Source: Ilumatobacteraceae bacterium | Lineage (GTDB): Bacteria > Actinomycetota > Acidimicrobiia > Acidimicrobiales > Ilumatobacteraceae | Direction of reading: 5' to 3' | DNA: 53,079 nt | Assembly: GCA_023262325.1 (NCBI GenBank) | Contig: JALRBS010000059.1 | Span: 1 to 53,079 of the forward strand | Shown here: positions 49,709-53,079 of the stretch, one piece after another | Layout of the letters: the number at the start of each line of letters is the position of its first letter | Position numbering within the stretch: position 1 is the stretch's first letter | The notes under the pieces: model-generated | Database searches by the model: none | The model's input: only the letters and a program-made list of their open reading frames with translations | Told to the model about the DNA's origin: nothing | Made by a program: the position numbers and the translations under genes

Positions 49709-49782
49709 GGGGCTATAGCTCAGTCGGTTAGAGCGCATCCCTGATAAGGATGAGGTCGATGGTTCGATTCCATCTAGCCCCA
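49709..49782 (+). tRNA. tRNA-Ile (anticodon GAT)
   Basis: 74 nt cloverleaf: acceptor GGGGCTA/TAGCCCC, D arm TAGCTCAGTCGGTTAGAGC, anticodon loop CTGATAA (GAT), T loop GGTTCGATTCC, discriminator A. CCA not encoded. It follows the gyrA region as the tRNA-Ile of many actinobacteria does. Confidence 0.98.
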
Positions 49783-49786
49783 CTGG

Positions 49787-49812
49787 AACCCCTGCTTCGG
49801 CGGGGGTTTTGT
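49787..49812 (+). terminator. intrinsic terminator of tRNA-Ile
   Basis: AACCCCTGC, TTCG loop, GCGGGGGTT pair over 9 bp with one G-T wobble, followed by TTTTGTTG: a strong UUCG-capped terminator 4 nt after the tRNA. Confidence 0.92.
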
Positions 49813-49823
49813 TGTTTCTGTGG

Positions 49824-49850
49824 GGTTTCCGTTGTGTTGCAACGGAAACC
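49824..49850. repeat. perfect 11-bp inverted repeat past tRNA-Ile
   Basis: GGTTTCCGTTG, TGTTG, CAACGGAAACC. It has no T-tract, so it is not an obvious terminator. Two 11-bp arms around a 5-bp centre resemble a tyrosine-recombinase core. The rest of 49851-49970 shows nothing. Confidence 0.5.
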
Positions 49851-49970
49851 TGCTTGTCCTGGTTGCTCGTTTGCTATGTCGCTTCTGACTTTAGCTAGCA
49901 CAGCGACGTTCTGTGGTTTGGGCCGAGGGAATCGGTCAAAATCGGGTGAGTTCGTTTCTTAGGGCTTCAA

Positions 49971-50843
49971 ATGCGGGGACTGCTGCTGACTATGTTCAGG
50001 GTTATGCGTCGATTGAAAGTTCGTTCCCGCGTTGGCCTGGTGGTCATGGCATTGCTGTTATCAGGATGCACAGACAGTTGCTTCGGCCTTGGATCATCAC
50101 AGGTATTGTTTCCCGAATGGCGTTTCGCGGAAGGGTCTCCCGAGAACATTTGTCAGCAATTTATTGACATCACAGTTAAAGATGGATACCTACTCCCTGA
50201 TTTTAAAATCGAGTTAGCTCTTGATGTCTATAACTCGACATTTTTTAAACGAATCGATCCCCCAATTAAGTACGTCAAGACAGGACCGAACAATGGATAC
50301 TTCGAGGTGACCGTGGGGGACACCCTCCCGAGCGATGCAGTTCCCAATGGTTTCTACAGAATGAGGGCAGAAATCTTTGAAACCTATCAGCGTTCAATAA
50401 CCTGGATTGATGATGGCCCGATTCAGGTGAGTGACTGCGACAAAGAGCCAGACATATCGTCTTCGGCAGCACCAGAGACCAATGCTGCAACGTCAGAAGA
50501 GCCATCAACGGACGATCAGCAGCCTGTTTCGAATCTGAAAGCGGAATTCCACCGTTCTAACACTCTCGGGTGTCCGTTCGTGCAAGCAGTTGACGTCGCT
50601 GGCGTCGTTGACGATGTGAATGTCAGGTTGAAGTTGTCTATTGACGGCGCACCAGTCGACAATACTGCCGAGTTCATCACCGAAGGCGAATATGTCGAAG
50701 AAGGCTTCGACGGATATTTCGATCTCGTCGCGGGCGACGATTTCGATGCAACACTTGAGGGGCAACACGTCTTCGAGGTCGAGGTGTCTGACGGCACCAG
50801 TGCAGTCACGATTGAAGGCACATTCACCGCCGACTCCTGCTAG
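49971..50843 (+). CDS. hypothetical lipoprotein (accessory)
   Basis: 290 aa; signal peptide ending in lipobox LSGC (Cys33). ATG 49971 has AGGG 9 nt upstream; ATG 50004 (MRRLKVRSR) would give a more normal signal peptide. A first beta-rich domain (about 40-160), a Ser/Thr/Glu linker (about 163-185) and a second beta-rich domain (190-290) each contain two Cys, suggesting disulfides in two Ig-like modules. No family recognised. Codons are visibly AT-richer than the core genes (for example 50151-50260), consistent with transfer. Confidence 0.75.
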   Translation: MRGLLLTMFRVMRRLKVRSRVGLVVMALLLSGCTDSCFGLGSSQVLFPEWRFAEGSPENICQQFIDITVKDGYLLPDFKIELALDVYNSTFFKRIDPPIKYVKTGPNNGYFEVTVGDTLPSDAVPNGFYRMRAEIFETYQRSITWIDDGPIQVSDCDKEPDISSSAAPETNAATSEEPSTDDQQPVSNLKAEFHRSNTLGCPFVQAVDVAGVVDDVNVRLKLSIDGAPVDNTAEFITEGEYVEEGFDGYFDLVAGDDFDATLEGQHVFEVEVSDGTSAVTIEGTFTADSC

Positions 50844-50861: not shown

Positions 50862-50903
50862 ATTGCACCCGACGACCAACCCGCAGCAGTCTGAACAGAC
50901 ACT
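50862..50903 (-). pseudogene. 42-bp remnant of a tyrosine recombinase gene
   Basis: 39 of 42 bases match 52747-52788, inside the recombinase gene, and all three differences fall at third codon positions. The minus strand reads VSVQTAAGWSSGAI, the catalytic GW-S box. Both sides lose similarity, so it is a fragment left by recombination or decay of a related gene. Confidence 0.75.
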
Positions 50904-50917
50904 GATGCCCGAAATAT

Positions 50918-51577
50918 CTACTTGCGAGAGATTTCGAGTTCCAGACCATCGATCAGCGTGAAACTCCAGGTGGCCAAAAATTCATCAGTTTCAGCGGTTT
51001 GCTCGCGACCGCCAGGTTGTTCGACAAGTAACTCAGCAAAAATGTCCTCGGTAAAACCAAGTCCGCGAAAAGCCTCTCGGAAAGTTCGAGCTCCCATGCA
51101 CGCCAGGTAATCGGATTCTGTTGGGCCATTTTCCACGCCTAACAGATCTCCAAGCCCATCTAACGCACCATCTGAGTAGCGCACCTTTAAATAAGCCGAA
51201 TCTGCCCCGCCTCCAATAAACCTTTGAGTCCCACCGAATAAACCGTCGCCACGACAATTACGACGGCCAATTACGTCGACGAGATAGTTCCGTAGGTTGT
51301 CAGAGGAAGGGGAAGCAACGGTCGTGGTTGTCGACTCAAGAATTGGTATCACCGATGTCGACGAAATGACCACAGTCGTCGACGTGACATCGGTAGCTTG
51401 TTCCAGCGGGGAACTGGAAGCCTTCAATTGCTCGATTTCGGCCTGGAGTGCCTCGATCTCTTTTGATTGGTCACTTGCACAGCCACTTGAAATTAGAACT
51501 AGCGCAGCAAGCCAGACGGACTTACCCACGAAGATCACGGGGAGTGTTTCTCTGGAACGGTCAACGAGATTCTTCAC
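50918..51577 (-). CDS. hypothetical lipoprotein, operon with the Ltp-repeat protein
   Basis: 219 aa, GTG start overlapping the upstream TGA. Signal peptide with lipobox SSGC (Cys33), a short coiled coil (about 39-55, KEIEALQAEIEQLK), a Ser/Thr/Val-rich linker (about 57-90) that spans the wall, and a C-terminal domain with two Cys (RRNC, LACM). No family recognised. Coil plus linker suggests an oligomeric surface protein. Co-encoded with the DUF2510-Ltp protein, so the two may cooperate. Confidence 0.78.
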   Translation of the reverse strand: MKNLVDRSRETLPVIFVGKSVWLAALVLISSGCASDQSKEIEALQAEIEQLKASSSPLEQATDVTSTTVVISSTSVIPILESTTTTVASPSSDNLRNYLVDVIGRRNCRGDGLFGGTQRFIGGGADSAYLKVRYSDGALDGLGDLLGVENGPTESDYLACMGARTFREAFRGLGFTEDIFAELLVEQPGGREQTAETDEFLATWSFTLIDGLELEISRK

Positions 51578-52608
51578 AATCCAACACGGTCGGCGGCGTA
51601 GGTGGCCTCACTACTCGAGAATCCTTCAAATATGAGTTGGTCGATGAGACCTGACCGCGAGAACGCCATCATGTCAAGATACGACTCGGCTGATTTCACA
51701 GCTTGTTCATTCCAGTTGACATTTAAGGAGTCCACGGCATAAGTCGCATCGGCGTTTGAGTAGCCCTCGTATTCGAGTTGGTCGATGAGACCTGGCTTGG
51801 AGAATGCCATGAAATCGAGGTAAGACTCCGCTGACCTTATGGCGTTTTCTTGACCTGCGGTAGCTCCCGAGCTCGAGCTGCTGGATGATCCGCCCAGTGC
51901 CTGATCTGCTCCATAGGTTGCGTCTGAGGTAGAAAATCCCTCGAACTCGAGTTGGTCAATGAGACCTGATCGGGAGAATGCCATTGAATCTAGGTAAGAC
52001 TCTGCGGATTTGACGGCTTGTTCACGCCAGTCGACATCCACGGCATCAACTGCGTAGGTGGCATCCGCAGTCGAGTAGCCCTCGAACTCGAGCTGGTCGA
52101 TGAGGCCTGATCGAGAGAATGCCATGAAATCGAGATATGACTCGGCTGAGCGCCGAGCATTTTTCTGGCTCGTCGTCTCTGACTCATTTGTGCTCGATGA
52201 GTCGGATTGGTTTGACCCATTCGAGGACTCATTCGCAGTAGAGCTGTCGCTGCTGCTCGCAGGTTCTTCATCTGTCTTCGTGGCCTCTGTAGACGACTCG
52301 TTCGTATTTGAACTCGAGTCGTTTGCGGCGCCTGCTATTCCAGCGATGATGAGAACGCCTACTCCAACCCCGATCCACAGTTTCTTTTTGCTCTTCTTTG
52401 CAGGAGTGGATGATATTCCTCCGCCTGCTGGTGCCCCTTGAGGTGGCGGGAGGACAGGTGTGTCGGATTGTGGTGGCTGAGCCACTCCAGGAGTCGTTTC
52501 TGTGAGTACCTCACCAGCAGATGTCTGGACTTGACTGGTCCAATCTGTTCCGTCGAAATACCGCCGCAGGTAGCGGCCGTGGGGGTCGTTGTACCAACCT
52601 TTTTCCAT
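51574..52608 (-). CDS. DUF2510 membrane protein with four Ltp-like repeats
   Basis: 344 aa. DUF2510 at 4-27 (GWYNDPHGRYLRRYFDGTDWT), Pro-rich region, basic KKSKKK before one membrane helix (76-95), a long Ser/Thr/Asn/Glu stalk (96-148), then four copies of a roughly 42-residue helix-turn-helix unit at 149-193, 197-238, 256-300 and 304-344 with core SAESYLDxMAFS, GLIDQLEFEG and DATYA. The unit matches the Ltp/host-cell-surface-exposed lipoprotein repeat; phage TP-J34 Ltp blocks DNA injection by other phages. Repeats 1-2 and 3-4 form two similar pairs, so the array probably grew by duplication. Phage exclusion here is inference. Confidence 0.85.
   Translation of the reverse strand: MEKGWYNDPHGRYLRRYFDGTDWTSQVQTSAGEVLTETTPGVAQPPQSDTPVLPPPQGAPAGGGISSTPAKKSKKKLWIGVGVGVLIIAGIAGAANDSSSNTNESSTEATKTDEEPASSSDSSTANESSNGSNQSDSSSTNESETTSQKNARRSAESYLDFMAFSRSGLIDQLEFEGYSTADATYAVDAVDVDWREQAVKSAESYLDSMAFSRSGLIDQLEFEGFSTSDATYGADQALGGSSSSSSSGATAGQENAIRSAESYLDFMAFSKPGLIDQLEYEGYSNADATYAVDSLNVNWNEQAVKSAESYLDMMAFSRSGLIDQLIFEGFSSSEATYAADRVGL
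51577..52164 (-). repeat. four tandem Ltp-unit repeats at DNA level
   Basis: Repeat units at 52164-52030, 52020-51895, 51843-51709 and 51699-51577 (minus strand). Units 1 and 3, and 2 and 4, are the closest pairs, with a Ser-rich spacer at 51894-51844 between pairs. Confidence 0.85.
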
Positions 52609-52673
52609 GAGGGCTCCGATCGGTGGATAGTCGTCTGAAGCTGTTTTAGCTCACCAATGAGCGGTCTCAATGC

Positions 52674-53079
52674 TCACAGACCTGTCAGTCTGCTGAACTC
52701 GTTCATGGCGAGTTCTGCTGACATTGCCGATGTATAACGCGCGACCATTGCGCCTGATGACCAACCCGCAGCAGTCTGAACAGACACTTGGCTGATCCCG
52801 CGTTTCAACGCGTGTACAGCCCAACCCCGCCTCCACGCGTGAGGAGACGGCGCATCCAACCGTTTCATTAACTGTTGGATCGCGTTCGACGACATCCCCA
52901 CCAGGCTTCCGTCGGGCTGTGTTTGGTGTCGTCGGATCAGACGACACGCCTGATCTGACAACGGAGCCAACCGTGGTTTACCCGTCTTCGAAGTTCTGAC
53001 AACAACGAACCTGTCGGACAGGTTCACATCATCTCTAGAGAGCCGCGCAATCTCAGAAACCCTTAGTCCTGTACTCCAC
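52674..53079 (-). CDS. tyrosine recombinase/integrase, 5' end beyond window
   Basis: The frame is open to the right edge (minus strand); GTG 53027 is internal. Box I reads STGLRVSEIARL with the catalytic Arg, followed by the beta-strand Lys (TSKTGKPR), box II HAWRRGWA (His and Arg), GWSSGAM where Trp replaces the usual His, and the nucleophile Tyr in VARYTS. About 134 residues are visible; the N-terminal DNA-binding part is outside. It lies upstream of the Ltp operon on the same strand and about 2.9 kb from tRNA-Ile, suggesting a mobile-element integrase or XerC-like resident recombinase. A catalytic-box fragment recurs at 50862. Confidence 0.9.
   Translation of the reverse strand, partial: WSTGLRVSEIARLSRDDVNLSDRFVVVRTSKTGKPRLAPLSDQACRLIRRHQTQPDGSLVGMSSNAIQQLMKRLDAPSPHAWRRGWAVHALKRGISQVSVQTAAGWSSGAMVARYTSAMSAELAMNEFSRLTGL
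52747..52788. repeat. 42-bp direct repeat copy inside the recombinase gene
   Basis: Partner of 50862-50903 in the same orientation; the last 30 bp (52759-52788 and 50874-50903) are identical. The pair brackets the two-gene lipoprotein/Ltp operon. Confidence 0.8.

Follow-up and report, generated by a model that had tools for sequence, protein, structure and literature searches.

The DNA from a tRNA-Ile gene to the contig end, in the stretch of 53,079 nucleotides analysed here as a whole (the window), is probably the end region of one small tRNA-targeted integrative element, or of several such elements in a decayed tandem, in which the left copy of a 42-bp direct repeat is a relic scar. This copy most plausibly derives from a sister integrase, of which it would be a recently truncated remnant. 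On its right side, the window carries genes which, recognized from their translations, we take to be dnaA-dnaN-recF-gyrB-gyrA, and to the right of gyrA a membrane protein gene and then tRNA-Ile follow. The order 3′ of the tRNA is terminator, strong hairpin, lipoprotein A on the plus strand, the left repeat copy and, on the minus strand, lipoprotein B, an Ltp gene and the integrase:

49709-49783, plus strand: tRNA-Ile(GAT), intact, the presumed attL (ARAGORN; Rfam tRNA, 77.9 bits)
49784-49811, plus strand: strong terminator directly 3′ of tRNA-Ile (terminator scan, fold)
49825-49922, plus strand: left-end (LE) block of 98 bp, opening with a strong hairpin (GGTTTCCGTTG...CAACGGAAACC) (LE consensus matches in congeners)
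49971-50843, plus strand: cargo gene A, putative lipoprotein of 290 aa (homologues in G014 and G015)
50862-50903, minus strand: left 42-bp copy, candidate remnant of another integrase gene (SVQTAAGWSSGA) (39 of 42 positions shared with the intact gene, third-position mismatches)
50918-51577, minus strand: cargo gene B, putative lipoprotein of 219 aa (open reading frame, overlapping the end of the Ltp gene)
51574-52608, minus strand: cargo gene for a DUF2510 and Ltp-repeat protein of the superinfection-exclusion family (PF07553, E 3.5e-65; PF10708)
52674-53078, minus strand: C-terminal 134 aa of a tyrosine integrase truncated at the contig end (PF00589, 70.8 bits)
52747-52788, minus strand: right 42-bp copy, inside the integrase gene (repeat comparison)

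Cargo gene A, which matches no Pfam or PHROG family, has homologues in the congeners G014 (47% identical, located immediately 3′ of an LE block at tRNA-Ala) and G015 (57%), while family searches with cargo gene B gave no match. The Ltp protein matches PHROG 4980 'superinfection exclusion' (E 3.5e-77) and, judged by its family membership, is probably cargo that protects the host from other phages. PADLOC matched only PD-T4-6 and JetA; these weak matches overlap the low-complexity linker and the Ltp repeats and are therefore discounted as evidence. The visible part of the integrase contains all of R, K, HxxR, W and Y, with the N-terminal half lying outside the window, and its best full-length homologue, a protein of 267 aa in the Actinomycetota MAG casp15-mb.155 (L082; 71-72% identical), also adjoins a tRNA-Val-like sequence. 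A 41%-identical integrase starts some 110 bp behind a tRNA-Ala in another genus of the family (L116:4151-4558), where the contig ends inside the gene. A second lipoprotein family, 54% identical, is found in the tRNA-Ile flank of G014 (L068:3686-4495) and, within the genome of the window itself, close to tRNA-Ala (L076:2969-3853).

The two 42-bp copies, in direct orientation and spaced by 1,885 bp, are identical at 39 of 42 positions and share an exact core of 30 bp starting at 50874 and 52759, the sole exact repeat of at least 25 bp within the window. As the longest exact repeats in 20 windows simulated with a first-order Markov model were 14-17 bp, the recurrence reported by the initial annotation holds and exceeds chance repeats. 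The 30-mer occurs no more than twice in the host genome, and a 24-nt degenerate version (at most 3 mismatches) recovered one further copy among 60 relatives, in G014. The right copy spans SVQTAAGWSSGA between the H-x-x-R box and the catalytic Tyr of an open tyrosine-recombinase frame, and the left copy occupies 42 bp of the 74-bp gap on which lipoproteins A and B converge. No integrase homology flanks the left copy on either side and its borders are sharp. The three mismatches (50873/52758, 50870/52755 and 50867/52752) do all fall on third codon positions in the integrase frame, which suggests that the copies diverged as working genes, while the lack of any other change between them suggests that the truncation is recent. 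Together with integrase relics in congeners, these third-position changes support the earlier proposal of a related recombinase gene as the source of the left copy; as the probable remnant of a second integrase, this copy would make the direct repeat a scar rather than a functional recombination site.

The sharp borders without flanking homology, as well as the location of both copies on one contig in the same orientation, would be expected if 42 bp of the resident integrase had been copied into the intergenic gap by template switching or repair, with no second integrase ever present. Such local copying is nevertheless unlikely, as the restriction of all three differences to third positions, which has a chance of about 1 in 27, points to divergence under coding selection, and as the independent integrase relics of congeners make a second integrase plausible. 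A chimeric join of two elements during metagenome assembly might be considered, since the host is a MAG of 221 contigs and the window and a G007 contig both stop within the integrase at the 12-mer GTGGAGTACAGG; however, the relic is internal to its contig, where it lies in the short gap on which two intact open reading frames converge, and a 30-bp repeat is short for a misassembly, which renders an artefact highly improbable.

The reading as the end of an element whose left copy derives from a sister integrase builds on element ends that recur in congeners. The LE block is found 3′ of tRNA-Ile in G014, of tRNA-Ala in G014 and G012 and of tRNA-Val in G015 with about 86-98% identity (L066:6839-6936, L071:2616-2712, L072:3462-3535 and L067:171-268), with shorter remnants in G006 and G004, and neighbouring chromosomal DNA compared with LE-bearing or sister species is mostly only about 68-78% identical. 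At tRNA-Ile loci the block is present in the window and in G014 and absent from those of G004, G005, G007 and G008, which are empty sites. The region 49784-49870 folds with z = -4.3, and the LE block may be an arm-site of the integrase or a regulatory RNA; the tRNA is the only match in an Rfam scan. The 5′ part of the window's tRNA-Ile is presumably chromosomal and its 3′ part possibly element-borne. The T-stem, GATGG/CCATC in the window and ACAAG/CTTGT in all eight congeners with the locus read, was considered as a possible proof that the element had brought a tRNA end with it and is not diagnostic, because the T-stem of the window also resembles the order-level form GCTGG/CCAGC.

The right end (RE) was recovered in two congeners as a stretch of 53 bp, 96-98% alike, of which 28 bp are identical in G007 and G012. 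In G007, GCGGGTTTGCGTCAGCGAACCCGCC directly joins a tRNA-Val that lacks its 5′ part, with the start of the integrase about 100 bp farther inside; in G012, the identical 28 bp are fused to a tRNA-Ile that is also missing its 5′ part and behind which the native tRNA-Ile terminator GGCGGCCC/GGGCCGCC lies. Both junctions between RE and tRNA lie at the D-loop (TAGTYGGYTAGAGCGC). These right ends show the anatomy customary for elements that recombine within a tRNA and place the integrase at the right end of the element facing inward, matching the layout of the window. The host genome itself yielded neither a right end nor a truncated tRNA, and the contig stops inside the integrase; both points weigh against the element reading. 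The contig ends within the integrase at GTGGAGTACAGG are those of the window (53068-53079) and of G007:C17 (L084:1875-1886), one of the two contigs carrying the 3′ half of the gene and the other the 5′ half. Outside the cellular genomes, the viral contigs searched contained no exact core, LE, RE or relative of the integrase, phage records matched only through generic 31% integrases and terminator-like sequences, and the plasmid matches were confined to Ltp genes and generic recombinases.

Based on these arrangements, the tyrosine integrase at the far end, facing inward, would recombine a site on the element with the region of tRNA-Ile, -Ala or -Val that runs from the D-loop to the anticodon. 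Integration would leave the tRNA complete at the left end and 5′-truncated at the right end. Elements would then have accumulated in tandem, with the left 42-bp copy as what a recent deletion may have spared of a second, closely related integrase. That related elements accrete at a single site is documented (PMC5704250; PMC3146451). Around such elements, decayed integrases are common in congeners: in G006, residues 207-255 with one stop codon remain at the tRNA-Ile locus, and in G014 the box plus VAHYATAG and a stop codon follows another, unrelated lipoprotein gene at a distance of 58 bp in the right flank of the tRNA-Ile locus. In G004 the relic MVASYTKAMSAELAINEF directly abuts a decayed tRNA-Val-like end and an LE remnant, an arrangement which would be expected as what two tandem elements leave behind. 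Between the two 42-bp copies, no LE, RE or tRNA remnant scored above shuffles, which counts against a tandem at the window locus itself; that tandem, like the deletion, is inferred.

A point against the relic reading is that the breakpoints of these relics agree more closely than expected, at 291/294 and 328/333 in the coordinates of the integrase fragment: the relics of the window and G014 start at most 3 bp apart, and the end of the window relic falls together with the start of the G004 relic (shared ATTGCAC). Because the relics are so few, this coincidence is suggestive only. Conceivably, the 42-bp box, perhaps along with GTGGAGTACAGG upstream, is a secondary hot spot which exchanges element modules, such that the 3′ ends of integrases are shuffled among tRNA islands. 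The coincident breakpoints in three relics and the two contigs ending at GTGGAGTACAGG fit such an exchange, the numbers being small, and we regard it as a long shot.

The initial annotation had described the copies as enclosing exactly the two-gene lipoprotein/Ltp operon and as possible borders of a cassette gained or lost by recombination. The interval is less exact than described, as it also contains 52674-52746, the 3′-terminal 73 bp of the integrase gene, in which the codon of the catalytic tyrosine lies. That the 42-mer or its 30-bp core serves as a recombination site between whose copies the lipoprotein/Ltp pair is excised or inserted is suggested by the exact direct repeat, by the coincident breakpoints of the three relics and by the Dehalococcoides ssrA islands as a precedent for an att sequence embedded in an integrase gene (PMC3146451). 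Excision would, however, leave a joined product encoding an integrase that ends in ...GWSSGAID (VSVQTAAGWSSGAID) followed by a stop, devoid of the catalytic Tyr nucleophile, while the circle would carry the integrase tail. As a candidate att site the 42-mer was rejected: it shows neither an att-like inverted repeat (6-8 bp spacer) beyond shuffles nor similarity to tRNA-Ile or other tRNA nor a stable fold, and the 74-nt gap likewise has no stable fold (z 0.67 and -0.47). An integron cassette system was also dismissed, as the recombinase reaches 28.1 bits against a cut-off of 265 for TIGR02249, with only its C-terminal half in the window, and no attC-like folding site is present at the borders.

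The search for the core beside other cargo, proposed along with the cassette, had a divided outcome. On the one hand, the same box does stand behind the unrelated lipoprotein gene of G014; on the other hand, it is a single copy there (96% over 27 bp) with homology extending past the end of the window relic, and Ltp homologues elsewhere (L114, L115 and L117; congeners G014, G015 and G006) are accompanied by neither the core nor an integrase relic. Ltp-repeat genes adjoin tRNA-Glu/tRNA-Gln in two congeners (L115:7638-8776 and L117:5-1401) without integrase or core, and in G014 the start of an Ltp-like gene is found immediately 3′ of LE. Ltp genes thus do travel along with tRNA loci, only not via the 42-bp repeat. 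With the ends of the element located elsewhere, namely at tRNA-Ile plus LE block and at the right end plus truncated tRNA, the copies are not supported as cassette borders, and we consider this role very unlikely.

As the end of an integrative element, the region resembles the tRNA-targeted tyrosine-integrase islands and integrative and mobilizable elements (PMC5704250) in its tRNA site, with the whole tRNA at one end and, as seen in congeners, a repeat at the other, in the tyrosine integrase at one end and in the presumed accretion of related elements at one site. It differs from them in that no relaxase or transfer gene is visible in the window element, of which one end is visible, and in that one conserved end block is used at three different tRNAs. 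Tycheposons, described for Methylophilaceae after Prochlorococcus (PMC10872708), share the bordering tRNA, a tyrosine recombinase (XerD-like in tycheposons) and variable cargo when compared by the layout of the visible end, whereas the window element, known from one end, belongs to a different phylum, has an integrase only distantly Xer-like and carries lipoproteins and Ltp as cargo. The Dehalococcoides ssrA islands (PMC3146451) correspond to the proposed layout in their tandem arrangement at one RNA gene, the repeat of the RNA gene end at their borders and the integrase at the edge; theirs is, however, a serine recombinase, and the repeat in their integrase gene is an att site, which is not so here. 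With the Ltp superinfection-exclusion proteins, whose prototype is that of phage TP-J34 (PMC3952083), the window protein shares Ltp repeats (PF07553) and an expected surface exposure, but it adds an N-terminal DUF2510 and a membrane segment.

The papers that an open-access library listed included no description matching the element family. The element is of an ordinary kind, and its family seems undescribed. The repeat thereby becomes a marker for a small mobile-element family which inserts in tRNA genes, here near gyrA, of uncultured Actinomycetota. The conserved ends, 98 bp on the left and 53 bp on the right, provide handles for locating complete elements of a family that would employ a single conserved end at several tRNAs and whose predicted cargo consists of surface lipoproteins including a probable phage-exclusion gene.
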